A DNA stretch of 64,000 nt from Pseudolysobacter antarcticus (GTDB lineage Bacteria > Pseudomonadota > Gammaproteobacteria > Xanthomonadales > Rhodanobacteraceae), in the NCBI RefSeq assembly GCF_004168365.1, contig NZ_CP035704.1, forward strand, positions 3,782,001 to 3,846,000, in the 5' to 3' direction. A program made the translations under genes and the position numbers. Positions 3,560 to 33,675 of this stretch are shown here, piece by piece (positions within the stretch are counted from its first letter, which is position 1; every line of letters begins with the position of its first letter). The notes beneath the pieces were generated by a model, which worked only from the letters and a program-made list of their open reading frames with translations, was not told the DNA's origin and did no database searches.

Positions 3560-4123
3560 ATGCAAAATCAAACCGAAAGTATCGCGCGCCTGCTTCAGCG
3601 CTGGCGCGATGGCGACAGCGACGCGCTCGAACGTTTGCTGCCGCTGGTCTACGCTGATCTGCGGCGCATTGCCGCATCGGTATTGCGCGGCAGCTCCGGC
3701 CACGCCACGTTGCAAACCACCGCGCTCGTACATGAAGTGCTGCTGCGCCTGCTCGGTCGAGCGCCCGCGGATTTTAGCGACGGCGCGCATCTGCTGAACG
3801 CCTCGGCGCGCATCATGCGCCAGATTCTGGTCGATCGCGCGCGCGCTGCCGGCGCAGAGAAACGCGGCGGCACGTGGTTGCGCGACGACTTCGCCGAAGC
3901 GCTGGAACTGCCGATTCCGGACGGGACCGATCTGGCCGCACTCGATGACGCATTGAACGAGCTGGAGTCCGTCGATCAGCGCATGTCGCAAGTGGTCGAG
4001 TTGCGATTTTTTGTCGGTCTCAGCGTCGAGGAAATCGCCGGTACGCTCGGCATCACCGCACGCACCGCGAATCGCGACTGGGTCGCCGCACGCAGTTGGC
4101 TGAAACAGCGCCTCGAAGCGTGA
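3560..4123 (+). CDS. ECF-like RNA polymerase sigma factor (TIGR02999-type)
   Basis: 187 residues from the ATG at 3560. In-frame upstream starts at 3452 (GTG) and 3503 (ATG) exist, but this start matches the family's usual N-terminus ('IARLLQRWRDGDSDALERLL'). Region 2 contains 'PLVYADLRRIA' and region 4 a helix-turn-helix, 'LSVEEIAGTLGITARTANRD'. Members of this group are commonly encoded beside a PknB-type Ser/Thr kinase with TPR repeats, exactly as here (kinase start at 4176, 52 bp downstream). The kinase presumably takes the place of a zinc anti-sigma factor in signalling. No convincing Shine-Dalgarno precedes 3560, so the exact start is less certain than the gene. Confidence 0.88.
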   Translation: MQNQTESIARLLQRWRDGDSDALERLLPLVYADLRRIAASVLRGSSGHATLQTTALVHEVLLRLLGRAPADFSDGAHLLNASARIMRQILVDRARAAGAEKRGGTWLRDDFAEALELPIPDGTDLAALDDALNELESVDQRMSQVVELRFFVGLSVEEIAGTLGITARTANRDWVAARSWLKQRLEA

Positions 4124-10196: not shown

Positions 10197-10424
10197 TCAA
10201 GCGGTTGCGCAGAATTTGCGGATCGCATACGCATCAAACGGCCAATCCAGCTCCGTGCCGTTATCTTCATTGCGCAGCACCGGAATGCGTTCGCCGTAGC
10301 GGGTTTCGAGTGCCGCATCGCTGTCGACATCGATCGGCACAGCAACCACATCGGCATGCCGCAGCGCCTCTTCGGCGTGCCAACACAACGCACAATCGCC
10401 GCGTCCGTACAAAACTAATGCCAT
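10197..10424 (-). CDS. glutaredoxin-like (DUF836-type) small thiol protein
   Basis: 75 residues, starting 'MALVLYGRGDCALCWHAEE' with a CxxC pair (C11-C14) at the start of the first helix and a likely cis-proline in 'ERIPVLRN'. This is the compact thioredoxin-fold layout of glutaredoxin-like DUF836 proteins. They probably act in cytoplasmic thiol-disulfide exchange, though partners are rarely known. The gene is convergent with the GTPase gene, with stops 10 bp apart, and divergent from the serine dehydratase gene. It is short but its motif order leaves little doubt that it is real. Confidence 0.85.
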   Translation of the reverse strand: MALVLYGRGDCALCWHAEEALRHADVVAVPIDVDSDAALETRYGERIPVLRNEDNGTELDWPFDAYAIRKFCATA

Positions 10425-13035: not shown

Positions 13036-14634
13036 ATGACCCAGCTTTTAGAAACCCGCCGTCGGCGCACCTTCGCCATCATTTCGCATCCCGATGCGGG
13101 CAAGACTACGCTGACCGAAAAGCTGCTGCTGTTCGGCGGCGCGATCCAGATGGCGGGCAGCGTGAAATCACGCAAGGCAGCGCGGCATGCAACGTCGGAT
13201 TGGATGGCGCTGGAAAAAGAGCGCGGCATTTCGGTGACGTCATCGGTGATGCAATTTCCATACGAAGATCGCGTCATCAATTTGCTCGACACACCGGGCC
13301 ACGCGGATTTCTCCGAAGACACCTATCGGGTGCTGACCGCGGTCGATTCCGCGCTGATGGTGATCGACTGCGCCAAGGGCGTGGAAGAACGCACAATCAA
13401 ACTCATGGAAGTCTGTCGTCTGCGTGATACGCCGATCATTACCTTCATCAACAAGCTGGATCGCGAAGGGCGTTCGCCGATCGAATTGCTGGATGAGGTG
13501 GAGTCGGTGCTCGGCATTCAATGCGCGCCCGTGACGTGGCCGATTGGCATGGGTTCGCGCCTCAAAGGCGTGTATCACTTGCTCACGAATGAAGTGCATT
13601 TGTACGAACCCGGACGCAATTTCACGCGCCAGGATTCGACGATTTTTACCGGCCTGGATCATCCGGAATTGCGTCGGCGCCTTGGCGACATGTATGACGA
13701 ATTGCGCGAAGAACTGGAGCTGGTGCTGGGCGCATCGAATCCATTCGATCGCGATGCCTATCTGGCCGGCAAACAGACGCCGGTGTTCTTCGGCTCGGCG
13801 GTGAATAATTTCGGCGTACAGCCACTGCTCGATGCGTTTGTCGAAAATGCACCGGGGCCGCTGGCGCGCGCGACGACGTCGCGTGTAATTTCTCCCGATG
13901 AAACCAAACTCACCGGCTTTGTGTTCAAGATCCAGGCGAACATGGATCCGATGCATCGTGATCGCGTCGCGTTCATGCGCATCTGCTCGGGTAAATTTAC
14001 GGCGGGCATGAAGGCGTTTCATGTGCGCACGCGCAAGGAAATGAAACTGGCGAATGCGCTGACGTTCATGGCGTCGGATCGCGAACTGGTGGAAACGGCA
14101 TGGCCCGGCGATGTCATCGGCATCCATAACCACGGCACGATTTCGATCGGCGATACGTTTACCGAAGGCGAGAATCTGAGCTTTACCGGCATCCCGAATT
14201 TCGCGCCGGAGTTATTTCGCCGCGCGCGCTTGCGTGACCCGCTCAAGATCAAGCAATTGCAGAAAGGTCTGGCGCAATTGTCGGAAGAAGGCGCGACGCA
14301 GTTTTTCCGGCCACTGATGTCGAACGATCTGATTCTCGGTGCGGTGGGCGTGTTGCAGTTCGACGTGGTTGCGTATCGGCTCAAGGACGAATACGGCGTG
14401 GATTGTCTGTTCGAGACGATCGGTGTGGTCACGGCTCGCTGGGTACATGGCGAAGACGAGAAAAAACTCGCCGAGTTCCGCGAGAAGAATGCGTCGTTTC
14501 TGTCGCTGGATGCGGCGGGTGAGCTGGTCTATCTGGCGCCGACGCGAGTCAACCTGCAACTGGCGATCGAACGTGCGCCAGCGATACGTTTTGCGGCGAC
14601 TCGCGAACATGCGAGTGCGGCTTTGATCAGTTGA
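13036..14634 (+). CDS. prfC: peptide chain release factor 3 (RF3)
   Basis: 532 residues, near the E. coli length. RF3 is a translational GTPase that recycles RF1/RF2 from the ribosome after peptide release. The G domain has '[10 protein letters not shown]' (17-26), the G3 motif '[14 protein letters not shown]', and 'NKLDRE' for guanine recognition. The switch region '[20 protein letters not shown]' is a hallmark of RF3 against EF-G. Domain II/III sequence ('[18 protein letters not shown]') also fits. It stands alone on the plus strand, with a possible -10 at 12963 and a hairpin after the gene. Confidence 0.97.
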
Positions 14635-17671: not shown

Positions 17672-18631
17672 CTAGTTCTTGCCAGCTGCAACGGGCACGG
17701 CAGTTGGCGCCAACGGGGTTGCTGCCGACGTGGGCATGTAGCGGTCACGCAACGACTCCACCAGTGCAGGATCGGCGTCTAGCGGCATGCTTGAAAAATT
17801 TGCGCTATAGGTACGTAACTGCTGCTCCTTGTACTGAGCGGTCAGTTGCGCAATCAAAGCCTCGCGTGATTCGTCGAAACTCTTTTGATGATCGGCTTCG
17901 CGCTTCACCAGCTTCAGAATGTGATAGCCGAATTTGCTATGCACCAGCGGGGATATTTCACCCTCTTTCTTCAGACTCTGAGCGCCTGCGATAAACGCGG
18001 GATCGTATCGGGTGTCGCCGGCATCGGTCATCAAACCGGCATTTTTACTTTTGCTGGGATCATCCGAATATTTCTGAACCAGCGTATCGAATGCTGCCGG
18101 ATCGGCCTTCGCCTGATGCTCGACATCCTGCGCGAGCTTCTTTGCCTCGTCGTCGCTACGCGATTTTACATCGATCAAAATATGCTTCACGTCAATCTGA
18201 CCATGAGTTACATAGTCGGATTTATGTGTGGCATAGGTTTCCTTTGCCAAGGACAACAGGTCGGGCAATTTCAGGTTGGCCTCGAAACTGGTCAAAGCCT
18301 GCTTTGACAATAACTCGTCCTGCGCCAGCTTCAATTGCTGCTGCACCGCGGGAGTCTGATCGAGTTTGTTATCCCGCGCAGTCTGCGCCAATTGCTTTTG
18401 CAGCAACAGGCCGTCGATCAAATTCTCGATACGCTTGGGGCTGTCCATAAATCCCGCGCGATCTTTCTGCGGTATACGCTGCACATACGCATCAATATCG
18501 GCGAAAGTCACTTTCGCCGTGCCGCGAGACGCGATCACCGCGTCGGAACTCGGTAAATCGACTGCGGATGCCGTAGCGATAAAGGTTGCAGCCAAGGAGA
18601 TGATAAAGCCGAGCTTGGTTCCGATACTCAT
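17672..18631 (-). CDS. periplasmic parvulin-type peptidyl-prolyl cis-trans isomerase
   Basis: 319 residues. A signal peptide (about residues 1-23, ending TASA|VDLP) is followed by an N-terminal helical chaperone-like region with 'PKRIENLIDGLLLQKQLA'. The PpiC/rotamase domain starts around 'QIDVKHILIDVKSRSDDEA' and ends with 'PLVHSKFGYHILKLVKRE', the conserved family signature. It should fold exported proteins in the periplasm, like SurA or PpiC but with a single rotamase domain. The C-terminus is a Pro/Ala/Val-rich tail. It stands just after (upstream in coordinates from) genes for exported proteins and the T2SS, but cotranscription is not evident. Confidence 0.93.
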   Translation of the reverse strand: MSIGTKLGFIISLAATFIATASAVDLPSSDAVIASRGTAKVTFADIDAYVQRIPQKDRAGFMDSPKRIENLIDGLLLQKQLAQTARDNKLDQTPAVQQQLKLAQDELLSKQALTSFEANLKLPDLLSLAKETYATHKSDYVTHGQIDVKHILIDVKSRSDDEAKKLAQDVEHQAKADPAAFDTLVQKYSDDPSKSKNAGLMTDAGDTRYDPAFIAGAQSLKKEGEISPLVHSKFGYHILKLVKREADHQKSFDESREALIAQLTAQYKEQQLRTYSANFSSMPLDADPALVESLRDRYMPTSAATPLAPTAVPVAAGKN

Positions 18632-18724: not shown

Positions 18725-19948
18725 TCAGGGAGTATTGACAGTATTCTTAATTGCAGAATCACAACCAGCACCATCTATAGCATTGCTGCAGAGTTGCACG
18801 GGATGGGTTGGCGGATTTGTCAATGCAACATTCGCAATATTAAGCCAATACTGAGTACCAGGAGTCAGATGACATGTCCCCGGGGTGGTGCCGTTAGGAT
18901 CCGTGTCCCAAGATACGGCAGGGGTGCGATCCGTGCTGGATTTGAAGCAATTAGCACCAAGGGCCCCTGCTACAACGGCGGTTCTGAAATCGCCTTTGCA
19001 TGTGCTGATGGTAATTGATGCATTGGCTTGATTAGCACTTGCCTGACTTAAATAAGTACCGGAGTGTGTACCTGCCAATGCTGTGAATGAGAAGGCTAAA
19101 AAACCATTTGTATTTATAACTATGAACTGAGGCCCTGCGCTCGTGACGCCCGGCCAGCCCACCTGAGAAGGCCCACCAAAAATCGACCCGAAAGTGCTGC
19201 CGGTGACACCCGTACTATCATTGGTTATGACCGGTTGCTGCGTAAACGATCCCGAGTACACCACAGGACTAGGGCAGTTGCCTGTCGGAACGATGATGTT
19301 AGCGGTAACGGCTGGGCTGACGGCCAATGAGGACGTAGCCGTACTCGTCAGATTTCCGGAAGTTAGCGTACTGCTGCATGTAAGACCAAAAACATAGGTG
19401 CCGGTGGACAAATTAGACGCAGTCGCCGAGGTTAAACTGCCGCACGCCGCAGCATTTGAACACACAGTACCAGACCAGCCGCTAACGGTAGTGCTAAATG
19501 CGCCACTGCCGGTATTGAGCGTTGCAGATGCCACACATGACGTCGAAACTCCCGCTGGCGACAAATTGCCAATCGATATGTTTATCGGAGTGGTGGTCTG
19601 ATTTGCGGGTAGCGTTGTAACGGGCACACCTAACGTAATAGTAGGCGTTGCGGGAATTCCAGGCCCTGTCTGCGTAGTTCCACAGGTCGTGGCGTCAGGT
19701 GTGGCGCTGGAGATATACAAATCGCCTGCTTCGGTCTTGCCATTCGGTGGCGGATTCGCAAATGCACCAGCCACCACAAAGGTACCGCCAATGGTGTCCG
19801 CGACAATGTCCACGCCTGGACCTACTTTCACCTGGCAGGTCTTGAGTGGCGAGCCATATTGAAAATAGATATTAGTCGCTGCAGCGTTGCCGGCGAAACC
19901 GACGGACAGCAGGAAAATGGACGCACTTGCTAAGGCAGATCGAATCAT
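18725..19948 (-). CDS. exported Ser/Thr/Gly-rich protein of unknown function
   Basis: 407 residues beginning MIRSALASASIFLLSVGFAG, a clear signal peptide cleaved near AAA|TNIYF. The mature protein is very rich in Thr, Ser, Ala, Asn and Gly, with many short beta-strand-like segments and about a dozen cysteines (for example 'GNCPSPVV', 'TCHLTPGT', 'CSNAIDGAGCDS'), suggesting a disulfide-stabilised secreted beta protein. I recognise no catalytic domain or sorting signal. GC content is visibly lower than in the surrounding housekeeping genes. It lies downstream of another exported-protein gene and the T2SS operon, so secretion by the T2SS is possible but unproven. Confidence 0.75.
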   Translation of the reverse strand: MIRSALASASIFLLSVGFAGNAAATNIYFQYGSPLKTCQVKVGPGVDIVADTIGGTFVVAGAFANPPPNGKTEAGDLYISSATPDATTCGTTQTGPGIPATPTITLGVPVTTLPANQTTTPINISIGNLSPAGVSTSCVASATLNTGSGAFSTTVSGWSGTVCSNAAACGSLTSATASNLSTGTYVFGLTCSSTLTSGNLTSTATSSLAVSPAVTANIIVPTGNCPSPVVYSGSFTQQPVITNDSTGVTGSTFGSIFGGPSQVGWPGVTSAGPQFIVINTNGFLAFSFTALAGTHSGTYLSQASANQANASITISTCKGDFRTAVVAGALGANCFKSSTDRTPAVSWDTDPNGTTPGTCHLTPGTQYWLNIANVALTNPPTHPVQLCSNAIDGAGCDSAIKNTVNTP

Positions 19949-20116: not shown

Positions 20117-20146
20117 AAAAAAAGAGGGGGCCAAACGGCCCCCTCT
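20117..20146 (-). terminator. strong Rho-independent terminator
   Basis: On the minus strand a 10-bp G+C-rich stem (20137-20146 with 20123-20132) closes a 4-base loop and is followed by a run of at least six U (20117-20122). It stands 24 bp after the stop of the frameshifted secreted-protein gene and is the clearest terminator in the window. Confidence 0.92.
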
Positions 20147-20169
20147 TCAACTTACAACACGCTACTTGC

Positions 20170-21686
20170 TTACGAGCAAACACCATTGGTGTTGGTGCAA
20201 GTACGCGAGGTACGGTGACGGTACAGACCAGCATAGTTACCCAGGATACCCGGGGTCACGTTCTTGTTGGTGAAGTCCTTCGCGAGGAAGCCGGTTACCG
20301 GCAGACCCGAGAACACGTTGCCTTCGTTGGAAGCGGTCAACAAGTGACCGGCACCAGTCAAGGTGATGTTAACCCAGCCCGAGGTACCGCTGGCGCCGAG
20401 GTCATGCAGCGTATCGACGTTGGTGAACAGCGGCGAACCGAAGATCGGCGAAGCTGCACCGACAGACGCGGTCGGCTGGAAGGTAACAACCTGTGCTTCC
20501 CAGCAAAGAACCGGGCTGTTGGCACCCGGACGCGGCGGCGAGAAGCCCGTTACGCGCTGCGGGGTACGCTCTTCACGATCATACTCGTTCAGGCCAACCT
20601 TTTCGCAAGCCGTGCCTGGATTCGCACTATCGTCACCAAACAGCACGGTGAAGGGAGGAATTGCGGCCAGGAACAAGGTCGGATCAACGTAATAACGCTT
20701 GGTCGGGAAGGTAATTACCCATTCCGGGCAACCGAGCCGCTGGCCGGGTTCAGCTCATATTCGTTGTAGATATGGTCAGCGGTGAAGACCGAGCTTACTG
20801 CATCGATCGAGCCGCCGCTGGTCAGGGTCCACGACGAGGTAATCAGCTTGCCGTTGTTGAACACGTACGAGGTTTCAACACCACCGGTGTTGTCGCCGTT
20901 GGTCAGATCGGGTGCGATCGTACCTGCCTGGTTGAACAGATTACCGGTGCTGGTGTAGAAGCCGTCAACCGCATCGGCGTTGTAACCAAACAGGGTACCA
21001 GCCAGCGAGTTGACGATGCTGCCCGTACCGAACAGACCACCGGTCGGGGTGAGGTAATCCGCACCACCGGTAGCACCGATAACGGCTTTGCAGCCCGGCG
21101 GCACACCGTTGACATGCTTGATGTTGGCAAGCGTCGGACCGACAACCGTCGCCATTTCGATCAACTCGATATGGCCGGTGCGGGTACGGCTGAGAGCTTC
21201 CGGACCGCCGTCATCGTTGCCACCAGCATATGCACTGTTGACGAATGCAGCGAAGTTGCGGCCATCAGGCAGCTGTTCGATACCCGGGTTGCCAACTGCG
21301 CCATGCTTGATAGCAGGATCGGTGCAGCTTTCGTCCGGAGTAAGCACGGCGGCTTCTGCGCTGCCGTCAGTTGCGCGAAGATTGATACCGCCGGTATCAA
21401 ACACGGTTGCGGTCCAGACGTCATACGGCGACAGGTACAAGTTGAAATCGAGTACTTCGCGGCTGTCATAACCTTCAAGGAAACGCACCTTGACAGCCTT
21501 ACCAGCGTTCTGGGTGTTAACCACAGAGAGCAAGGTCTGGTTGTTGGCATTGACGGTGAAGTACGGGTAGATCAAGACCTGGCCCAGACCATCCGGGTTC
21601 AGGTTAACGGCACCCGCCATGTTCGCGATGCCAGCAACACCGGCGATTCCGGCGATCACGGCAGTAGTAAGATTATTTCGTTTCAT
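20170..21686 (-). pseudogene. exported protein gene interrupted by a one-base frameshift
   Basis: Two adjacent frames make one protein of about 505 residues. The first (ATG 21686, preceded by AGGAG at good spacing) has a signal peptide and ends prematurely at 20715 with 'NPASGSVARNG'. Reading one base out of phase from there gives 'EWVITFPTKRYYVDPTLFL', which joins directly to the second frame ending at 20170. Insertion of one C into the CCC run (GGG at 20726-20728 on the plus strand) would restore a continuous protein. Both halves share composition, beta-rich character and one terminator, so the break is recent or a sequencing error. No enzymatic motif was recognised; function unknown. Confidence 0.82.
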
Positions 21687-22370: not shown

Positions 22371-24845
22371 TCAATGTTGTTTGTCAGGGTTAGGCATAGG
22401 TACGGTTTCGGCGGGAACGAAGCCTTTATCCGAACCGTTGGTATTTTTGATGGGAGCATCCGGTGAAGACGTAGGAACCGGCGGCGCCAGCACCGTACCT
22501 TTTGCGCGCAGGGGTGCAAGCGACTCAAACTTGTTTTGATATTCCTCGGTCATCGTGCGCGCTTCTTCCTGATTTCTGATGACTCGCGGCGTGATCAAAA
22601 TAATGAGCTCGGTTCGATCACGATGATTAGTGGTATTGCCAAACAATTTACCGATGATCGGAATATTCACCAAGCCCGGTAAACCAGTCTCCACCGTACT
22701 ATTGTTTTCCTGGATCAACCCGCCTAGCAAAACCGTCTCGCCGCTCTGAACCGCTACCTGCGTTTGTAGCTGACGCTGGTTGATCGCCGGATTGGCGCCC
22801 GGAGCAGCTTGGGCTGGCGAGCTCACTTCCTGCTGGATATCCATGTATACCAAGCCGCCCGGATTCACGCGCGGGGTGATCGTGAGCGTAGTCCCGGTCG
22901 AAATATAGTTGACGGAGTTATAGGAACTACTAGTCGTACTCGTTCCCGTGCCGGTGGTGCCGATCACGCCCGGTGCAAGCGAGACCGTAGTGATAGGAAT
23001 CTGTGAGCCGGACATGATCGTTGCCGACTGATTATTCATCACTACCAGCGACGGCGTCGCCAACGCCTTGGTTAGTCCTTTAGTCTGCAGCGCGTTGATC
23101 GCGACTTCGAAATTCTTGTTGAGGAACGAATAGAACAGACCGCCGTTGGCAACTGGCCCAGGCCCTGCTGTGGTAGCGCCGAGGGACGTGCGATGGCGGT
23201 CGTGTGAATTGCCTGTGAAATCTCTGCCATTGTTGACCCCAGGCGGGTTGTAGTTGTAGTTACCGTTTGCCTCCGCCGAGCCCGCGCCAGTGCCGATGAG
23301 TCCGTTGAGATACCACTGCACGCCGTAGTTCAGATCGCCCGACAGAATTACTTCCAGCACTTTAGCTTCGATCTGCACTTGCAACGGCGGCACATCCAGA
23401 CGACGAATCGCCGAGGTGATCGAATCCCACTCGAATGGCGTCGCCATGATCAACAACTGATTGTTTTCTTCCACGGCAGTGATGCGGATATCGCTGTCCT
23501 TGGCCGCAGCTCCACCCGATGCAGCAGGCGCTGAACCACCGTTGGCCCCTGCATTTGTTGGCAGATTATTGGTGCGTGCCTGGTTGAGTCCGGTGGTTGC
23601 CCCGCCGACACCGCCGCCCAAACTGCTACCTCCCAATGTGCTGCCACCGATACCACCACCCGCGCCGCCGATCGAACTCGATCGCAGCCCTGGCGCCACC
23701 GAGCCCGAAGTGCTCGTGCGACGCGCGCCAGAGGAGCTGGAGCCGCCGATGAAAATGCTGATCAGATGATCCGAAAGATCTACCGCCTTGACGTTTTTCA
23801 CGTCGTAAACGTAGAGCTGCGTTGCGCTGTCACCCGCGCCCACATCGAGACGATGCAGCCACTTCTCGGCCTGCTCCAGATAAGTGACCTGCGGCGTGAT
23901 CACCACCACCGAATTGGTGCTGTCGATCGGAATAAAACGAAACATGCCGGCCAGAGGCGATTCGCCGGTGGCGCCGAAGATCTTGTCCATCTCGGTCATG
24001 ATTTTCGCCACTTCGGCGTGTTGCAGCGCGTACACACCGACCGACATGCCCTTGAGCCAGTCGACGTCGAAAATCTGGATAACGCGCGCGTAGTTTTCGA
24101 GCTCGCCCTGATTGCCCGCCAATACCATCATGCTGCGCGCAGCATCGGCAGATACCACGGCATCGGCGCGCGCGTAAGGCTTGAGAATCTTTGCCATCTC
24201 GGTCGGCGAGACGTATTTGAGCGGAAACACGCGCACTGAATAACCGTTGGGCAAAGTGGGCGCCGAAATCGTCGGCGCAAGATTGCCCGGAATCGCATCG
24301 GCCACAGCGGTAACGATATAACGGCCATCCTTGAATACCAGCGAGTTTTTGGTCCACGACAACAACATCTCCAGAATCGACATGGCCTGATCGAGATTGA
24401 TCGGCTTGGCGGTGGAGAACGTCACATTACCCTGCACGCCCGGCGCGATGGTGTAGTTGCGCTTGAGCAGCTCGCCAAGAATATTCTGCACGACAGCCTG
24501 AATCGGCGTGTTATCGAAGTTGAAGGTAATCTGGCCATCGGCTGCGGCTTTCGGCGTGAGCGCCTTTGCCGCTTGTTCATTGATGAATTTGCCGGTGCCG
24601 AGCTCAACCTCGCCTTTCGCCGGTGGCTTGCTCGGATCCTTGCCTTTGCTGCCGATGGCAATGCCGGTGCTGGTTTCATCCAGCTCGCGCTGTTTGCGCT
24701 CAGCATCAGAACCGACCGGCGCCATCGTGCGAATGATCGAATCTTCGCCAGCAGGCGCCGAGTCCTTGTGTTGGCCCGGCGTGGCGCAACCGGCAGCCAA
24801 GGCCGTCAGCAACGCGATAATCGTTATTCTCAGACGTAATGACAC
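22371..24845 (-). CDS. gspD: type II secretion system secretin (GspD/XpsD)
   Basis: 824 residues from a GTG at 24845 preceded by GGAG at seven bases; this start gives a compact lipoprotein signal (VSLRLRITIIALLTALAAGC). A TTG at 24902 would add 19 residues. GspD forms the outer-membrane channel. N-domains fill the first ~450 residues ('ITFNFDNTPIQAVVQNILGE', 'VRVFPLKYVSPTEMAKIL'), interrupted by a Gly/Ser-rich loop. The C-terminal secretin domain has the conserved 'VPIIGKLFG'-type region and 'ELIILITPRVI'. A lipidated secretin encoded last in the operon matches Xanthomonas XpsD. A Pro/Ser-rich tail may be a pilotin-binding S-domain. Confidence 0.95.
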   Translation of the reverse strand: MSLRLRITIIALLTALAAGCATPGQHKDSAPAGEDSIIRTMAPVGSDAERKQRELDETSTGIAIGSKGKDPSKPPAKGEVELGTGKFINEQAAKALTPKAAADGQITFNFDNTPIQAVVQNILGELLKRNYTIAPGVQGNVTFSTAKPINLDQAMSILEMLLSWTKNSLVFKDGRYIVTAVADAIPGNLAPTISAPTLPNGYSVRVFPLKYVSPTEMAKILKPYARADAVVSADAARSMMVLAGNQGELENYARVIQIFDVDWLKGMSVGVYALQHAEVAKIMTEMDKIFGATGESPLAGMFRFIPIDSTNSVVVITPQVTYLEQAEKWLHRLDVGAGDSATQLYVYDVKNVKAVDLSDHLISIFIGGSSSSGARRTSTSGSVAPGLRSSSIGGAGGGIGGSTLGGSSLGGGVGGATTGLNQARTNNLPTNAGANGGSAPAASGGAAAKDSDIRITAVEENNQLLIMATPFEWDSITSAIRRLDVPPLQVQIEAKVLEVILSGDLNYGVQWYLNGLIGTGAGSAEANGNYNYNPPGVNNGRDFTGNSHDRHRTSLGATTAGPGPVANGGLFYSFLNKNFEVAINALQTKGLTKALATPSLVVMNNQSATIMSGSQIPITTVSLAPGVIGTTGTGTSTTSSSYNSVNYISTGTTLTITPRVNPGGLVYMDIQQEVSSPAQAAPGANPAINQRQLQTQVAVQSGETVLLGGLIQENNSTVETGLPGLVNIPIIGKLFGNTTNHRDRTELIILITPRVIRNQEEARTMTEEYQNKFESLAPLRAKGTVLAPPVPTSSPDAPIKNTNGSDKGFVPAETVPMPNPDKQH

Positions 24846-25018
24846 AGCAACACTCCGTTTACGGGCTGGCAGCCGAGTAGTGGCAACCGCCGGATAAAAC
24901 AAACCATGAATACATCGTACGGTGATCGCAACAGCATGCAGAATCTCTGTCGCGACGGCAAAACTCGCACTATCAGCCGTGCCTGCTGAATCGACCAGAT
25001 AGTCTTTCCAGCGTCAAA

Positions 25019-25765
25019 TTATTGCGATCCTTTCTGTTGCGCTTGCTTGGCCGCTTCGTCACGCATTTGCTTGCGGCGCTCCTCGATACGATGCTGCAAA
25101 TCGTCAACCTTGGCCTCGCCGGTAGGCGTGCGGCCAGGGGGCGGTGTGCCGGGAGGTACGTACGCATTTGGTACGGTCGCAACCGCTGGCGCAGCAGCTT
25201 TTGGGTCAGTTCCCGGCGCCGCTTTTGCTGTTGGTGGCGTTTTCGATGGGGGCGGTGATGGCGCACTGCTGAGCTCGACTTCCACATCCGAGCTACCGTC
25301 ATTGAAGATCGCGCTGCGCGGTTTGATCGTCATCAGCGTCCAGCCGCCCTGATCGCCCGGCAGCGGCATGCCTTCCTTGATCATTACCGGTGTGTTTTTG
25401 GCTTTGTCGGTCAGCATTACCAAATGGACGTCCGGGGTGAGAATGACGCCGTTGAGCGTGATATTCAGCGCTACCGGCGGCAAAGCAGGCTTGTCAGGCG
25501 TGGGATCCGCAAATTGGGTAGGCTTTCTATCCTCATTGAAAGGCGGCCTTTTCTGCACATCTGAAAACGTGTTTTCGTTGGGCAACTTGAACGGCTCACG
25601 GTCGATCGCGGCGGTAGCATTGGCGGCAGCGCCCGCATCCGAGGAATCGCCCGCCCATCCATATCCCGTGCCCAATCCGAACAATTGCAGCACGGCCAGC
25701 AATGCGAAGAAACCGCATATGCAGGTTAGGACCAAGGTGGCCAAGCTAGCTACACGCGTATTCAT
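25019..25765 (-). CDS. gspN: T2SS protein N, XpsN-type (GspC-like connector)
   Basis: 248 residues with one N-terminal transmembrane helix (about residues 8-30), a periplasmic homology region around 'FSDVQKRPPFNEDRKP' and 'LNGVILTPDVHLVML', and a Pro/Ala-rich stretch before a charged C-terminal helix. In Xanthomonas, XpsN takes the place of GspC, linking the inner-membrane platform (L and M) with the secretin. No gspC is present in this operon, which supports the same role. The start overlaps the gspM stop by four bases. A gap of about 170 bp separates it from gspD. Confidence 0.85.
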   Translation of the reverse strand: MNTRVASLATLVLTCICGFFALLAVLQLFGLGTGYGWAGDSSDAGAAANATAAIDREPFKLPNENTFSDVQKRPPFNEDRKPTQFADPTPDKPALPPVALNITLNGVILTPDVHLVMLTDKAKNTPVMIKEGMPLPGDQGGWTLMTIKPRSAIFNDGSSDVEVELSSAPSPPPSKTPPTAKAAPGTDPKAAAPAVATVPNAYVPPGTPPPGRTPTGEAKVDDLQHRIEERRKQMRDEAAKQAQQKGSQ

Positions 25766-26421
25766 TCCGAACGTTTCCCGCCAGTTTGCGGCTTTACCTC
25801 GGGCTTCTTGCCAGGCTGGCGCAGATAACCGGAAAGATTAAAACGAATATCGAGCGATGCCCCTGCCGTAGGTTGCTTGCCCCCCGGAACGGCGACAAAT
25901 CCGCCACCGCCGGCTTGTTTGAAAATCGCCAACTGATCCACGAACAGATACGGGTTACTGTTTTCCAGGTCGTACACAATATGCGCAAAGGTCTCCATAT
26001 CGCAGCGCATGCGCACTTGGGCAATCACGCGCAGATAAAGTTCCTCTTGCGCCAGATTGATCGGCTGCTTGCTGCTGATGCTGCAGCGGGTGGCATCGGC
26101 GGCGCGCATCGTGACTACCTGCGTGAGTTTCTGCGTCAGGCTGGAGAACGCGCTATTCGCATCCGCGTCGGTTAGAAACGCCTGATTGTTTTTTTCGAAA
26201 CTCAATACCTCGGCGAGCTGCGTCTCGATCTGCGGACGCTGCGCCGTGGTCTCGCGGAACTTGAGCTGCTGCTCGCGCAGATCACTCATTTGGCTGGCAT
26301 AGTCCAGATGCGGCGCGACAAACCACCAATGCACTCCCAGCAGGTAGCCGATCAACACTACCATCAGCAATAACGCCAGTGCGAAATATCGCCCCTTACT
26401 TGCTTCCGGCGTCAGGCGCAT
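25762..26421 (-). CDS. gspM: T2SS inner-membrane platform protein M
   Basis: 219 residues from the ATG at 26421, which follows AAGGAG closely and overlaps the end of gspL by 26 bases. The longer frame to 26589 is out-of-phase gspL sequence. One transmembrane helix (about 12-34, 'YFALALLLMVVLIGYLLGVH') is followed by a coiled-coil segment ('QMSDLREQQLKFRETTAQRP') and a periplasmic ferredoxin-like domain with 'PYLFVDQLAIF'. It should pair with GspL at the inner membrane. Confidence 0.9.
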   Translation of the reverse strand: MRLTPEASKGRYFALALLLMVVLIGYLLGVHWWFVAPHLDYASQMSDLREQQLKFRETTAQRPQIETQLAEVLSFEKNNQAFLTDADANSAFSSLTQKLTQVVTMRAADATRCSISSKQPINLAQEELYLRVIAQVRMRCDMETFAHIVYDLENSNPYLFVDQLAIFKQAGGGGFVAVPGGKQPTAGASLDIRFNLSGYLRQPGKKPEVKPQTGGKRSE

Positions 26422-27625
26422 TAGCCTCTCCTTTGGCGGCAGCATCAGGTTTCGATTTCGACTTGGCGGCATCGATCGCCGGCTTGTCGGATTTGAAATC
26501 ACGCGGACGCAGTTGCGCGATAAGATCGAAACGCTCTTTCTTGGTACGTGGATCGGGCTGGATCTGGCCCTGAAACGACGGATCGGCAATCACATCGGAC
26601 TGTTTCAGAGTATCAATCAGTTTCGCCGCGATCGCACTTTGCCCCTGGATTTCGAGCTTGCCCTTTTCGTCCACATTCAAACGCTCAAGAAATGTGTCGT
26701 CGGGCAGGCGCCGTGACAGATCATCCAGCAGCGCAACCATGTTCGGCGTTTCGGCTTTCTTGCGGCTCAGGAAGTTGGCCGAAGTAATCGTGTCCTGCAA
26801 GGTCCGGCGCAGATCGGAAACCTGCTTGGCGTCCTTGTTGGCCTTGTCTACTTCCTCGGTCATCGCGGCCACAGCTTGGGCGCGATTCGACAACGATTGC
26901 ACCATCACCACCAGCAGCAGCAATATCGCCGCCGCCGCCAAGGCGAGATTCAGGCGCAAACGCATGTCGCGGCGCTTGGCCCGACGATCCTGTGGTAGCA
27001 GATTTAATCCGGCACGACCGCTACCCGGCTGATCGCGCCAGCAGTCGACGCCGTCCAGCACCGCACCGGTGGTGGCGAGCGCGGCAAGTTCGTTATCGAG
27101 GACTCCGCGCGGCACCACGGTCAGATCCACACTCAGATTACGCCCGGCAGCATCACGCGCACCGGCCTGATAATCGAAATACACCTGGTCGGCCTTGAAC
27201 GGCGTCTGCCGGTCCATTTCAAATGCTAGCACCTGGCGCAAATTGTCTTCCGCCGCCGTGGGCAGCCACAAATTGCGATGCAAGGTGCGGGCGCGACTGA
27301 TGCAGAAATACACACGCAGATTCGGATCGGCGACCGCATTACGCAAGCGCGCAAAATTATCCTGCTGCTGCTCGGGCGTCAGCTCCAGCGCGATGCGGCC
27401 ATGCTCGCTGATCCGGTTCCCGGACTGACGCCACAGCACCAGTTCGCCCGGGTTGCGTTCGAGCAGCAAGGCTTCGCCGCGTTCGCCCAACGCGGCACGC
27501 CAGCGTTCGGGCAAAAAGGCAAAAAGCTCTCCGCCCCACCACGAAAAGAATCCGGGCAGTGGAGTTTTGGCATAGCGCGTCCGCAGTTGGACGAGCCCTT
27601 TTTTGAGCTGATCAGTAGGTGTCAT
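26396..27625 (-). CDS. gspL: T2SS inner-membrane platform protein L
   Basis: 409 residues from the ATG at 27625, whose A is the last base of the gspK stop. A cytoplasmic actin-like domain of about 235 residues ('RVYFCISRARTLHRNLWLP', 'EMDRQTPFKADQVYFDY', PilM/GspL type) precedes one transmembrane helix (about 240-262) and a periplasmic domain with coiled coil and a PilN-like fold. GspL recruits the GspE ATPase to the membrane and pairs with GspM. The C-terminal tail is Lys/Ala/Asp-rich and probably disordered. Confidence 0.92.
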   Translation of the reverse strand: MTPTDQLKKGLVQLRTRYAKTPLPGFFSWWGGELFAFLPERWRAALGERGEALLLERNPGELVLWRQSGNRISEHGRIALELTPEQQQDNFARLRNAVADPNLRVYFCISRARTLHRNLWLPTAAEDNLRQVLAFEMDRQTPFKADQVYFDYQAGARDAAGRNLSVDLTVVPRGVLDNELAALATTGAVLDGVDCWRDQPGSGRAGLNLLPQDRRAKRRDMRLRLNLALAAAAILLLLVVMVQSLSNRAQAVAAMTEEVDKANKDAKQVSDLRRTLQDTITSANFLSRKKAETPNMVALLDDLSRRLPDDTFLERLNVDEKGKLEIQGQSAIAAKLIDTLKQSDVIADPSFQGQIQPDPRTKKERFDLIAQLRPRDFKSDKPAIDAAKSKSKPDAAAKGEANAPDAGSK

Positions 27626-28542
27626 CAAGAGGCTTCGCCATCACGCCAGCGCAACACGACATACGGCCGACCCTCGTTACCGACACCGCCCATGCGAATG
27701 GTAGCGTCGAGCAGGGTACTGGCACCATTCGGGAGCGTGGCACGGGATTTAATACTATACGTGAGCCCGCCGCCATCTGCCACGATTGGCGTGCCGTCAG
27801 GGCCGGTAAGACCGGTTTGCGGGGTGCCGGCGGGTATCAGCTGGCGTTGCTGAATGATCTGGTTGGCCATGTCTGCCGTCATTCCGGGAGTAGACATCAA
27901 CGCCTCGAACGTCCCATACGCCAGACTAGCGTTGCCGCGGCCGGTATACAGCGTGATCGCGGGTTCAATGCGGCGATAGATTTCGTAGTTCATGCCGATC
28001 ACCTGCTGCATTTCAGACACCGTAGTGAACGGTTTGTTCGCGGGTCCATAGGCATAACCGGCGGATTTGTATTCGTTCAATTCGGCACCGTTTGGGGACA
28101 CCAGATCATCGGGATCGCGCCAGTCGATAATCGCCGCCGCGAGCTGGTCGGCCTTGGCCGGATCGATGCCGTTACCGACGAACATCTGCGTAAGAATGTT
28201 CACATCAGCGGTATTCAAATCGATCTTGCCGGAGTCGTCAGTGATCGCAACACTGACCTTGAAACCCTCGTATTCGAAATCATTCGGACGGCCATCCGCC
28301 ACCCAGCGCGTGGTTGGATCGGGCAGGCGCAACTGGAACACCGCGAGATTCAAACCCGCTTCAGCCGCATAACGCGCTCGCGTGGTATCAAACAAATGCC
28401 GTGCTTCGAGATTTTCGGTGCGTGCGATCAAGGCAAAACTGCCGAGCAGAATCGCGAGCAACGTGGTGATCCACATCACCAGGATCAGCGCCACGCCATG
28501 CTGCCGCGAAACGGCGATCAAATTTTTATCGCGACTAGACAT
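27625..28542 (-). CDS. gspK: T2SS minor pseudopilin K
   Basis: 305 residues from the ATG at 28542, overlapping the gspJ stop in a TAATG junction. The prepilin leader ends QHG|VALILV. As usual for GspK, the glutamate at +5 is missing. The large globular head contains 'DDSGKIDLNTADVNIL' and 'AAIIDWRDPDD', typical calcium/helix-hairpin-helix-like parts of the GspK alpha domain. GspK caps the pseudopilus tip together with GspI and GspJ. The longer frame to 28653 is gspJ sequence read in another phase. Confidence 0.94.
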   Translation of the reverse strand: MSSRDKNLIAVSRQHGVALILVMWITTLLAILLGSFALIARTENLEARHLFDTTRARYAAEAGLNLAVFQLRLPDPTTRWVADGRPNDFEYEGFKVSVAITDDSGKIDLNTADVNILTQMFVGNGIDPAKADQLAAAIIDWRDPDDLVSPNGAELNEYKSAGYAYGPANKPFTTVSEMQQVIGMNYEIYRRIEPAITLYTGRGNASLAYGTFEALMSTPGMTADMANQIIQQRQLIPAGTPQTGLTGPDGTPIVADGGGLTYSIKSRATLPNGASTLLDATIRMGGVGNEGRPYVVLRWRDGEAS

Positions 28543-29258
28543 TAACGCGCCGCTCCGTTGTTCAGCGGGTTGCCACGCGGTGTCGCGATAAAGCCATTGC
28601 GCTGTTGTGTGCTCGCGCCATCCATGACCAGCGCAATCTGCATGTCCGGCCATGCCACCAGCGCTTCGCGCGCCATTTCCAGATGGATGCGCACCATCAC
28701 CGGCGTCTTGCCCGGATCTTCCCAGCGATCGGTCCAGTCACCGAGTTCGCCTTGATCATTGTAGGTGCGGTATTCGAAACGGCCGGACTTGACCTGATCG
28801 ATCAGCACCTGCGGATCGAGATCGCTCAGCGTGAGTTTTTTTGCGTCGTAACCGGTCAGGATCACATTGCTGAAATACAGCTGCAAAGTGTTTCCCGCGG
28901 CGCGCTTGAGCTCGATTGTTTGCACGTACGCACCACCGTGCGATAGATAACCCGGCATCGGCGCAACAAAACGCATCATGTCGCGCGTGCCCTCGAAAAT
29001 TTTGTTCTCGCCGGTACTGTCGTCGTGATCGTAGGGCAACGGCAGAATGCGGCTGATCTGATGCCGCATGAACTCCTGCGACACACGCAGGCGATTGGTG
29101 CGCTCGACCGAAACCTCACCGGAAGCCATCGCTTTTGCCGCAGCACGCAGGCCGCTGTAACCCGCGCCGATCAATACCGCCAGCAAGACGATGGCAAGCA
29201 CCGTCTCCAGCAAGGTGAAGCCGCTGTTTGCACGCGGATGGATATGCAGATTCTTCAT
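28542..29258 (-). CDS. gspJ: T2SS minor pseudopilin J
   Basis: 238 residues. The prepilin leader MKNLHIHPRANSG is followed by FTLLETVLAIVLLAV, with Glu at +5 and the N-terminal hydrophobic helix. The head domain includes 'MMRFVAPMPGYLSHGG' and 'GRFEYRTYNDQGELGDW', typical of GspJ. It belongs to the pseudopilus-tip complex with GspI and GspK. The start overlaps the gspI stop in an ATGA junction. Confidence 0.94.
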   Translation of the reverse strand: MKNLHIHPRANSGFTLLETVLAIVLLAVLIGAGYSGLRAAAKAMASGEVSVERTNRLRVSQEFMRHQISRILPLPYDHDDSTGENKIFEGTRDMMRFVAPMPGYLSHGGAYVQTIELKRAAGNTLQLYFSNVILTGYDAKKLTLSDLDPQVLIDQVKSGRFEYRTYNDQGELGDWTDRWEDPGKTPVMVRIHLEMAREALVAWPDMQIALVMDGASTQQRNGFIATPRGNPLNNGAAR

Positions 29259-29713
29259 CCGCCGGGTTGTCCGGCAGGTTGAGGCGTATTCGCGCGCAAG
29301 GTCACGAAACGCGCCTGACGTTGCTGCGAGGTACCGTTCCAGCTGACGTTGAGATCGAGCTGATACAAATCGACGGGCGCGATTTGCTCGGCGGTAAATT
29401 GCGCTGCGGCCGGCGGCTGGAATTTGCTGATGCGCAGATCCCAGCGATAATTATTGTCGAAGCGACCGTTCGATCCGCCTTCCTTGAGGCGCTCGCCGAC
29501 GCCGACAACATCCAGCAATGACTGCGCCCACAACGCCGCCTGCGTATATTCGGCGGAGCGTCGCACGTTCTGGATCGAAGACGTCAACACGCCCATCAGC
29601 ACACTGAAACTGATCGCGAAAATCACGAACGCCGCGACCAGCTCGAGCAACGTGAATCCGCGCTGCTGCGGCAATCGGTTGTAGCGAAATGATCGGCGTT
29701 GAAGTGTCTGCAT
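29255..29713 (-). CDS. gspI: T2SS minor pseudopilin I
   Basis: 152 residues from the ATG at 29713; a TTG at 29758 overlapping the gspH stop would add 15 residues. The leader of 19 residues ends QQRG|FTLLELVAAFVIFAI, with Glu at +5. The rest has 'WAQSLLDVVG' and a short beta-sheet head. GspI nucleates the tip complex. No ribosome site is obvious before either start, so translation may be coupled to gspH. Confidence 0.9.
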   Translation of the reverse strand: MQTLQRRSFRYNRLPQQRGFTLLELVAAFVIFAISFSVLMGVLTSSIQNVRRSAEYTQAALWAQSLLDVVGVGERLKEGGSNGRFDNNYRWDLRISKFQPPAAAQFTAEQIAPVDLYQLDLNVSWNGTSQQRQARFVTLRANTPQPAGQPGG

Positions 29714-29754
29714 GGCGGGCGTTGTTGACCGGCATGGCGCGTACAAGTTCGCGT

Positions 29755-30207
29755 TCAATGCTGAATCTCCTCGCGCCCGACTTCACCCGTGAGCCAGCTC
29801 ACGTTGATATGCCATTCACGCTTGCCGAGATACACCGTGACGTGGCCACCGGTGGAACTGCCATCGGGATAAAAGCGGATCGAACCGGATTGCGCGCTGG
29901 TCAGCTCGTTGGTTGCCGTGAGCAAACCGAGGTGCATGCTTGGCGGCAGGCGCACGATCGCGCGACCCGGCGCCTTGTAGCTGTTGGTCTCGATATTCAG
30001 CTCGAAAATCTGCTGCTGGCCTTTGACGATCGCCTGACCACGCGTGTATTTGAGCATCGCCGCGAGATCGCGACTGGCCGCTTCGATCTTGGCGCTGGTC
30101 AGGCTTTTGCTGAAGCCGAATGACACCACGGCAATCGCGATGGCCAGCAACGCCATCACAGCGACCAGCTCCATCAGGCTGAAGCCGTGCTGGCGCGATG
30201 AGTTCAT
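29755..30207 (-). CDS. gspH: T2SS minor pseudopilin H
   Basis: 150 residues with a short leader, MNSSRQHG|FSLMELVAVMALLAI, Glu at +5. The head domain carries 'LAAMLKYTRGQAIVKGQQQI' and 'IRFYPDGSSTGGHVTV', both typical of GspH. It links the pseudopilus tip to the GspG shaft. It starts 36 bp after the gspG stop. Confidence 0.94.
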   Translation of the reverse strand: MNSSRQHGFSLMELVAVMALLAIAIAVVSFGFSKSLTSAKIEAASRDLAAMLKYTRGQAIVKGQQQIFELNIETNSYKAPGRAIVRLPPSMHLGLLTATNELTSAQSGSIRFYPDGSSTGGHVTVYLGKREWHINVSWLTGEVGREEIQH

Positions 30208-30243
30208 GGCGTACTGTGCCGAACGTTTGCTAGCAGCGCGGGA

Positions 30244-30711
30244 TTATTCCCAGCTGCCGACATCCTTGTTCAAGCTGTCGCCACCTGGGGCGCCATCCTT
30301 GCCGAGAAAAACGATGTCGAAATCGCCATGCTCGCCCGGCGCCTTGTACTGGTATGGATGGCCGAATGGATCTTTCAAATCCGAATCCTTGGCATACGGC
30401 CCGTTCCAGTTGCCGGCACTGCCCGGTCGCGTCAGCAGGTCGCCGAGCTGCGCAGGCGGGTTGCCATTGTCGAGAATATAGGCATTGATTTTCATTTCCA
30501 ACGCATGCAGCTGCGCCTTGCCCGCTCCGTATTTGCCCTTGTTGAAATTGTCCATGATTTTGCCGCCGACAATTCCCATAACCAAGCCGATCAAGACCAG
30601 CACAGCGATCATTTCGATCAAGGTAAAACCTTTCGTCCGCGACAGATTCGCGCGCGAGCCGAAACGCGCTATGCGTAACGCGCCATTCGATTGCATGTTC
30701 ATGTTTGTCAT
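30244..30711 (-). CDS. gspG: T2SS major pseudopilin G
   Basis: 155 residues; the ATG overlaps the gspF stop (ATGA). The cleavage site is RTKG|FTLIEMIAVLVLIGL with Glu at +5. The leader of 28 residues is longer than usual, so a start at one of the nearby Met codons (residues 4 or 6) is possible. The globular part has 'LLTRPGSAGNWNGPYAK' and 'LKDPFGHPYQYKAPGEHGDF', the conserved calcium-site region of GspG. It forms the pseudopilus shaft. Confidence 0.96.
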   Translation of the reverse strand: MTNMNMQSNGALRIARFGSRANLSRTKGFTLIEMIAVLVLIGLVMGIVGGKIMDNFNKGKYGAGKAQLHALEMKINAYILDNGNPPAQLGDLLTRPGSAGNWNGPYAKDSDLKDPFGHPYQYKAPGEHGDFDIVFLGKDGAPGGDSLNKDVGSWE

Positions 30712-31922
30712 CCTACGGATCCAGTCAGATCAAGAATCGGCAGCAGGATCGCCATCATCACAAAGGCGACTACCACCGTCATTATCACGGTTATCACCGG
30801 CACCAGCAGTGCCAGCAAACGATCAATGGTATTTTTGGTATCGTTATCGAAAGTATCGGCGACCTTGAGCAGCATGCCGTCGAGCGCGCCGGACTCTTCA
30901 CCGACACTGATCATCTGCAATGCGAGTTTCGGAAAGCGCTTGCTTTGTCCCAGCGAAAACCCGAGGCCCGAACCAGTTTTTACTTCTTCGGTCGCATTGG
31001 CGACCGCTTCAGCCATCGCGCTATTGCCGATTACATTGCGCACGATCGAAAGCGCGCTCAATAACGGAACACCATTCTTCAACAGAGTTCCCAACGTACG
31101 TGCAAAACGCGCAGTTTCGAGCTTGGTAAACAGCGGTCCGAGCAAACGCATGCTGAGCAAACGCTCATCGAATTTCAATCGCGATTCCGGCTGCGACAAC
31201 TGGCGCCGCACATAAGTCACTGCAAAAAACACCAGGGCAATCAATATCCACCAATAACTCGCCAGCACATTACTCACTGCTAGCACCATCTTGGTGATAA
31301 ATGGCAACTCGATATTCATGTCCTTGAACATCGGCATGAATTGCGGCACGACAAAAACTAGCAAGACGAACAACGCAAGAAATACCATCGCCACGAGGAT
31401 AGCCGGATAGATCAGCGCGTTGACGACGCTTTCCTTGAGCGCTTTCGCGCGCTCCAGATAATTCGCCAAACGCTCCAGCGTAGTATCGAGCGAACCACCG
31501 ATTTCACCTGCGCGCACCATGTTCACGTAGAGCCGCGAGAAAATGCCGTGTTCGACTTCGAGCGCGTCCGACAACGCCCCACCGCCACGCACTTGATCGC
31601 GTACACGCTCGATCACGCGACGCGCCTTTTCGTTCTCGGGCATGTCGAGCAAAATCTGCAGACCGCGATCCAGCGGCTGGCCCGCGCCCATCAACGTCGC
31701 GAGCTGCTGGGTGAACTGCAGCACTTCGGTCGGCCCCATCGCCGCACGCTTGAACATGCCACCGAGACCACTACCGTCGGCGCTGTCGGCCATGCGCACA
31801 TCCAGCGCAATGCTGCCGGCGTCCTGCAATTTTGAGACGACATCGTCGTTTGACGCGACTTCCATCTGGCCTTCGATGGTATCGCCGGCGGACGTGATCG
31901 CCTTGTAATAATACATAGCCAT
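30708..31922 (-). CDS. gspF: T2SS inner-membrane platform protein F
   Basis: 404 residues. Two GspF cytoplasmic helical domains (about 65-190 and 268-390) alternate with three transmembrane segments (about 165-190, 215-240, 375-398). 'SVGEESGALDGMLLKVAD' and 'RAGEIGGSLDTTLERLA' are the paired family signatures. GspF is the polytopic platform protein that couples the GspE ATPase to pseudopilus assembly. It begins seven bases after gspE. Confidence 0.96.
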   Translation of the reverse strand: MAMYYYKAITSAGDTIEGQMEVASNDDVVSKLQDAGSIALDVRMADSADGSGLGGMFKRAAMGPTEVLQFTQQLATLMGAGQPLDRGLQILLDMPENEKARRVIERVRDQVRGGGALSDALEVEHGIFSRLYVNMVRAGEIGGSLDTTLERLANYLERAKALKESVVNALIYPAILVAMVFLALFVLLVFVVPQFMPMFKDMNIELPFITKMVLAVSNVLASYWWILIALVFFAVTYVRRQLSQPESRLKFDERLLSMRLLGPLFTKLETARFARTLGTLLKNGVPLLSALSIVRNVIGNSAMAEAVANATEEVKTGSGLGFSLGQSKRFPKLALQMISVGEESGALDGMLLKVADTFDNDTKNTIDRLLALLVPVITVIMTVVVAFVMMAILLPILDLTGSVG

Positions 31923-31929
31923 CAGTGGC

Positions 31930-33675
31930 TCACGATTCCGAGGTCACGCGCAGCACTTCTTCGATCGTGGTCACGCCTTCGATGGCCTTGACCAGTCCAT
32001 CTTCGTACATCGTGCGCATGCCTTCTTCGCGAGCCTGAGTTTCGATCTTGCCCATGTCGCCGTGCTGCATCACGAGGCGCCGAATCGGATCGCTCATGAC
32101 GAGGAATTCCATGATCGTGGTACGACCGTGATAGCCGGTCGGCATCTGCGGTGTCGGCACCGGTTTGTACAGGTTCACCGGGCCTTCGGGCGCGAAACGG
32201 CGCAATCCGAATTCTTCGACGACCTCAGGCAAGGCTGGATACGCTTCGCGATGCGCAGGGTCGAGGCGGCGTACCAGACGCTGCGCCAGAATGCCGTTCA
32301 CGGTCGAGGTAAGCAGGTAATCTTCCACGCCCATATCGAGCAGACGCGTGATGCCACCCGCCGCGTTGTTGGTATGCAAGGTCGACAATACCAAGTGGCC
32401 GGTGAGCGCGGACTGGATCGCGATCTTCGCGGTTTCCAGATCACGCATTTCGCCGATCATGATGATGTCCGGATCCTGTCGCACGATCGAGCGCAACGCG
32501 TGCGAAAAGTCCAGCCCGATTTGCGGCTTGGCCTGGATCTGGTTGACGCCTTCGATCTGGTACTCGACCGGATCTTCAACCGTGATGATCTTGACATCAG
32601 CAGTGTTGAGTTTCGACAACGCCGTATACAGCGTTGTGGTTTTACCCGAACCGGTCGGACCGGTCACGAGCAAAATACCGTGCGGCATTTCCAGCACGCG
32701 CATGAAGCCGGCGAGAAACTGATCGGTGAAACCAAGCTTGTGGAAATCCAGCACGATCGATTCGCGATCAAGAATACGCATCACCACCGATTCGCCCCAC
32801 GACGTGGGCACGGTGGACACGCGCAGATCGAGCTCTTTGCCCTGCACGCGCAACATGATGCGGCCGTCCTGCGGCAGGCGGCGCTCGGCGATGTTGAGTT
32901 TGGCCATGATCTTGAGGCGTGAGATCACCGCGGCAGTCGATGCGGCCGGCGGTGACTCGACTTCGTGCAATACACCATCGACGCGATAGCGAACTTTCAG
33001 ACGATTTTCAAACGGTTCGATATGAATATCCGAGGCGCGACCTTCAACGGCGCGTTGAATAATCAGGTTGACCAGGCGGATCACCGGCGCTTCGGAAGCG
33101 AGATCGCGCAGGTGCTCGATATCGTCTTCGCTGCGATTGTTTTCGTCGGTCAGATTCTCGACGATCGTGCCCATCGCCGAGCGACCGGAGCCGTAATAAC
33201 GCTCGATCAGATCGTCGATCTCGGAGCGAAAACCAACCTTGACCTCGGCGGTTTTTCCGGTCGCGAGTTCGATCGCTTCGATCGGATAACGCTCGGCTGG
33301 ATCGGCCACGAGCAAGACGATGCCGTCGTCGCTCTCGCCGATTGGCACCATGTGATTCTGTTTCAAAAAGCGAATCGACACCTGCACGTTCGGCGGGGGC
33401 GATTCGGGAAATTCCTTCGCTGTGAGCAGCGGCAAGCTCAATACTTCGGCCAGCGCATCGCCCATGTCGCGCTCGGAAACCAGTCCGAGTCGGGTCAGCA
33501 GCGGAACCAGATTGCCTTCACCGCCCTCCTCGTGCAGGCGCCGCGCGCGCACGAGATCGGTTTCTTTCAGACGGCCGCGCGACACCAGAAACTGGCAGAT
33601 GCGTTCATCCAGCGCATCGGCTGCCAGAATGGTCTGGGCCGAAGGCGATGGCAGGTGGGCTGGTACTGCTGACAT
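31930..33675 (-). CDS. gspE: T2SS assembly ATPase E, without the zinc tetracysteine
   Basis: 581 residues, first gene of the T2SS operon. The N-terminal domain (about 1-165) is the GspL-binding region. The ATPase core has Walker A GPTGSGKT (339-346), the Asp box 'VEDPVEYQ' (366-373), Walker B 'IIMIGEMRD' (404-412) and the His box 'TGHLVLSTLHTN' (425-436). All appear intact. The C-terminal subdomain where most GspE proteins carry a CxxC...CxxC zinc site (about 467-520) contains no cysteine here; the only Cys in the protein is residue 27. 'MPTGYHGRTTIMEFL' otherwise preserves the module's end. GspE powers secretion at the cytoplasmic face. Confidence 0.96.
   Translation of the reverse strand: MSAVPAHLPSPSAQTILAADALDERICQFLVSRGRLKETDLVRARRLHEEGGEGNLVPLLTRLGLVSERDMGDALAEVLSLPLLTAKEFPESPPPNVQVSIRFLKQNHMVPIGESDDGIVLLVADPAERYPIEAIELATGKTAEVKVGFRSEIDDLIERYYGSGRSAMGTIVENLTDENNRSEDDIEHLRDLASEAPVIRLVNLIIQRAVEGRASDIHIEPFENRLKVRYRVDGVLHEVESPPAASTAAVISRLKIMAKLNIAERRLPQDGRIMLRVQGKELDLRVSTVPTSWGESVVMRILDRESIVLDFHKLGFTDQFLAGFMRVLEMPHGILLVTGPTGSGKTTTLYTALSKLNTADVKIITVEDPVEYQIEGVNQIQAKPQIGLDFSHALRSIVRQDPDIIMIGEMRDLETAKIAIQSALTGHLVLSTLHTNNAAGGITRLLDMGVEDYLLTSTVNGILAQRLVRRLDPAHREAYPALPEVVEEFGLRRFAPEGPVNLYKPVPTPQMPTGYHGRTTIMEFLVMSDPIRRLVMQHGDMGKIETQAREEGMRTMYEDGLVKAIEGVTTIEEVLRVTSES

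Follow-up and report, generated by a model that had tools for sequence, protein, structure and literature searches.

Gene organization at the locus

The stretch of DNA analysed here, hereafter the window, is 64,000 nucleotides long. The genome it comes from measures 4.73 Mb, is assembled into 2 contigs and is estimated to be 100% complete. On the minus strand of the window, a frame of 323 codons (21686 to 20718) forms one half of a gene, and the other half is a second frame whose end lies at 20170. The features of the locus and its surroundings are as follows.

17672..18631, minus strand: PpiC-type prolyl isomerase, which marks the distal edge of the conserved cluster
20121..20148, minus strand: intrinsic-terminator-like hairpin 3' of the gene, with a 12-pair stem (20148-20121) followed by T
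20170..20724, minus strand: downstream half, which starts with 'EWVITFPTKRYYVD' in the other frame and reaches the C-terminus without an internal stop
20722..20729, minus strand: break site, consisting of GCC, two bases and GAA, where homologues have a whole Ser/Thr codon before E/D-W
20718..21686, minus strand: upstream half, with a signal-like N-terminus and 320 family-like residues, then 3 out-of-frame residues
21913..22374, minus strand: small lipoprotein-like gene, which separates gspD from the split gene, labelled from its N-terminus and without a Pfam match
22371..24902, minus strand: gspD secretin (PF00263, PF03958, PF21305)
25019..33675, minus strand: remaining genes of the type II secretion operon (E, F, an N-methylation-motif protein, K, a PilN-domain protein and M)

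The upstream frame reaches a stop codon at 20717-20715, after 'NPASGSVARNG', and the second frame, one base out of register with it, runs for 192 codons without a stop down to 20170. Counted together, the halves have the same length as homologous proteins. The ATG at 21686 is preceded by an AGGAG site and the N-terminus of the upstream half is hydrophobic and signal-like; the ribosome site, signal peptide and terminator named in the first-pass annotation thus correspond to the AGGAG site, this signal-like stretch and the 12-pair hairpin. Within the secretion operon the PilN-domain protein is taken as GspL and the segment 25019-25765 as gspC, the latter from its position only; the Pfam scan of the operon covered all but 29255-30711. 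Between the split gene and the prolyl isomerase gene, positions 18725-19948 of the minus strand encode a 407-residue protein that begins like a signal sequence and matches no Pfam family.

The frames were also examined with a homology-free segmentation by codon usage trained on 16 other genes of the window. The segmentation switches frame at 20726/20727. It flagged 36 same-strand frame changes in the window, of which 34 were examined, those at 10212 and 10412 (between short minus-strand segments) being left out. The change at 20726 was alone among the 34 in that the new frame offers no ATG within 120 bases and no alternative start codon within 50, the nearest start being a TTG 53 bases on. The nearest candidates were 40899, which has no ATG but a GTG 26 bases further, and 49308, where the sole ATG lies 98 bases further and leads into an 88-base segment. 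Judged from the positions of stops and starts, no further breaks were seen among the 34.

Homologues, paralogues and the site of the break

All 27 homologues read at full length (L005-L031, one per other genome) are single frames of 457-552 residues, so that the intact protein sought in relatives was found, and the two paralogues in the same genome are likewise single frames, of 499 and 501 residues. Homologues were present in 29 of the 61 genomes searched, own genome included; only 9 of the 37 genomes of the same family in that search had a match, and presence within the family is patchy. A wider draw gave matches in at least 137 of 299 genomes of the order. The search returned 80 match rows, or 76 places once 4 second pieces were merged, and the open frame was shorter than 400 residues at 5 of the 76: the window gene, three contig-end cases (one in G046 and two in genome G001, of which one contains an in-frame TAA) and a 126-residue fragment in G036.

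Of the named relatives found, a Pseudolysobacter metagenome bin is the nearest. One of its loci (L036, on the same contig as L004) carries gspD, the lipoprotein-like gene and an orthologue of the split gene in matching order, its gspD being 88% identical over a 622-residue alignment. Across the break position the orthologue reads '...GSVASEWVVTFPTKRYYVDP' with the frame open, and the contig ends 15 codons later. Since the frame is open over the site, the genus has an unbroken frame there. The rest of this orthologue was sought in the bin and not found; the sole other match there to the downstream half (L051) was rejected as an orthologue, having a C-terminus of the paralogue type and matches to 0 of 11 tested neighbour genes. 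A paralogue in the bin (L037) has an in-frame TAA near a contig end. Among the gspD-linked copies examined, the window gene is the only split one, the orthologue in the bin being cut by the contig end.

The two paralogues of the window gene (L002 and L003) lie in tandem, both intact, at about 1,892.5-1,895.6 kb of G000:C2; in the 16-kb stretch that contains them (L038), 0 of 11 tested neighbour genes were matched. Their upstream parts are 82% identical (285 columns) and their downstream parts only 54% (179 columns); gene conversion or recombination could account for this unevenness.

The break itself was located against 30 aligned homologues, comprising the 27 full-length proteins from other genomes, the 2 paralogues and the orthologue in the bin. 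Agreement with the family extends in the upstream frame as far as the codon GCC at 20729-20727 and resumes in the downstream frame with GAA at 20724-20722. Two bases sit between them, where the homologues carry one full codon, encoding Thr in 17 and Ser in 13 of the 30. The alignment suggests that the net loss of one base falls between 20727 and 20724. The plus strand reads GGG at 20726-20728, that is, CCC on the coding strand, and the first-pass annotation had placed the loss of a C in this run; a C restored there would encode Pro at a position that is Ser or Thr in 30 of 30 homologues, which argues against the run as the site. No run of more than three equal bases occurs within 20701-20760, and no repeat spanning the break site was found.

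Because homologues, paralogues and codon composition agree, the two frames, both present as first described, are read as one split gene. The locus very probably represents what was once a single gene, encoding an exported protein some 500 residues long and split by a net loss of one base through mutation or assembly error; export is suggested by the signal-like N-terminus. The break is of an ordinary type, namely one disrupted gene or an assembly slip. The proposal of a net one-base loss in a single gene therefore stands, and what did not hold up is the CCC run as its site and phase variation as a possible cause.

Origin of the break

Three further explanations were considered. Programmed ribosomal frameshifting could connect the two frames if the ribosome stepped back by one base, and each half has the appearance of coding sequence; exported proteins are common targets of phase variation, which here would act by slippage in a short run. 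Both mechanisms are highly improbable because neither a slippery sequence nor a stable RNA structure was seen at the site and 0 of 30 aligned homologues are split there. Inspection by eye revealed no X-XXY-YYZ heptamer at the site, and an 81-base RNA segment starting immediately ahead of the stop is less stably folded than shuffled versions of itself (z +1.67), 194 of 200 shuffles folding at least as well. Slippage is further opposed by the composition of the interval 20701-20760, in which the longest run is 3 bases with no repeat across the site, and by the residue that a change in the CCC run would introduce, which is absent at that position from all 30 homologues. Least credible of all is that the frames are two genuine separate genes, with the TTG at 20676 opening the downstream one: such a start would lose 'EWVITFPTKR', the best kept residues of the downstream half, the second half has no visible signal sequence, and the homologues are one frame.

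The age of the break was approached by comparing conservation of the two halves. Mean identity of the window gene to seven homologues from the same family of bacteria was 0.515 for the upstream half and 0.438 for the downstream half. The intact paralogues, compared with the same seven, fell from 0.484 to 0.384 and from 0.485 to 0.373 between the corresponding halves. In many pairs among the seven the halves are about equally conserved. We read the downstream half as probably having undergone no extra decay since the break, the drop being common to the intact paralogues. Absence of extra decay would mean either a recent break or one that exists only in the assembly. In most pairs synonymous sites are close to saturated or already past it, so that the break can be dated only roughly.

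The frequency of such breaks in the genome was surveyed over 304 kb, comprising the window and 12 stretches of 20 kb. The survey gave 146 adjacent same-strand frame changes, of which 105 lie between segments longer than 150 bases, and 15 of the 105 have no start codon from -60 to +45. Two of these 15 were read as true breaks: the window gene, which was the basis for choosing the window, and a site near 13080 of L053. In twelve others a start codon follows within the next 100 bases, and these were judged by eye to be gene boundaries; the change at 3685 of L061, which is followed by an ATG at 3794, was likewise rejected as a break and assigned to a normal boundary between genes. Candidates in L059, L062 and L064, which adjoin a segment of less than 150 bases, were left out of the survey. 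The second one-base break (L053 ~13070-13085, corresponding to G000:C2 ~213,080) lies at a five-G run in a Kelch-repeat gene with a signal-like start, and Pfam Kelch motifs were matched in both frames. A single break in 240 kb is compatible both with consensus errors at a modest rate and with gene decay of the ordinary kind.

There is roughly an even chance that the break is a sequencing or assembly error and that the gene of the strain is whole. Favouring an error, the downstream half is conserved no worse than in the intact paralogues, and the 240-kb sample of the same genome contains one more one-base break, in the Kelch-repeat gene; a homopolymer run such as five G is a common kind of place for consensus errors. 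The break in the window, in contrast, lies outside any long run (the longest nearby is 3), and the 34 frame changes examined in the window yielded no other. A real and recent inactivating mutation in this strain or species is given a probability a little under one half. It is consistent with a break site free of repeats, with an assembly of 2 contigs and 100% completeness, and with the presence of two intact paralogues that could buffer the loss; against it, the position beside the secretion operon is widely kept, so that loss may carry a cost. Mutation and error are left as about equally probable.

As the sequence is written, being one base short between 20727 and 20724 would bring the frame to a stop three codons on. 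The cell would then make a protein without more than its last third, with the downstream half untranslated or nearly so. Such a loss would have arisen by inactivating mutation in the recent past or else be an assembly error left uncorrected, and a mutation would perhaps be tolerated because two intact tandem paralogues sit elsewhere in the genome. The locus resembles a frameshift pseudogene or an assembly frame error in its one-base loss, premature stop, intact homologues and paralogues, and family-like downstream half, and it differs from a typical frameshift pseudogene in showing no clear decay.

The protein family and its association with type II secretion operons

Neither half of the split gene, nor the 407-residue neighbour, nor the lipoprotein-like neighbour matched any Pfam or NCBIfam family at E values up to 1. 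A set of 27 family members, consisting of every full homologue except L029 (26 of 27) and one paralogue, gave Pfam matches to five families with one member each and best E values of 0.021 to 0.098, which were taken as chance. A profile of the same 27 members matched no solved structure at E values up to 1. AlphaFold predictions for the downstream half alone and for the upstream half with two relatives had mean pLDDT of 28.9 and 26.9, respectively, giving no usable fold. In the portion of the literature available to us, nothing was found on the split gene or on the sequencing of its genome. Mean pairwise identity in the family is highest in the post-signal region corresponding to residues 27-95 of the window protein (0.735), the values being 0.596 for the signal region, 0.389 for residues 96-318 and 0.403 for the downstream half.

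The gene order around the family is conserved. In 12 of 12 relatives, which were picked for strong matches and not randomly drawn, gspL, gspM, gspC, gspD, the lipoprotein-like gene, the homologue of the split gene and ppiC occur in that order. The slot occupied by the 407-residue protein is a variable one in the cluster, because a match, weak at about 30%, was found there in only 2 of the 12. A gspD lies beside the family member in 25 of the 27 other genomes examined, these being the 12 relatives, 14 genomes represented by loci with 1.5-kb flanks and the Pseudolysobacter bin with its orthologue, with L029 outside the test. The exceptions are L018, with neither neighbour in the flank, and L020, with the lipoprotein-like gene only.

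The window gene shares neighbours, order and kind of N-terminus with this unnamed exported family found beside type II secretion operons in the order, and differs from the gspD-linked copies of the family in being split. The conserved position suggests a functional link of the family with type II secretion. From the gene neighbourhood it is conceivable, albeit doubtful, that the family is a dedicated cargo or accessory of an unnamed type II secretion subtype in this order of bacteria; in that case the frame break would have naturally knocked out the copy linked to the operon, and the tandem paralogues might stand in for it. The split itself is routine, although worth flagging in annotation; a better lead than the break is the family itself, which has no name and has kept its place next to type II secretion genes across many genomes of the order.
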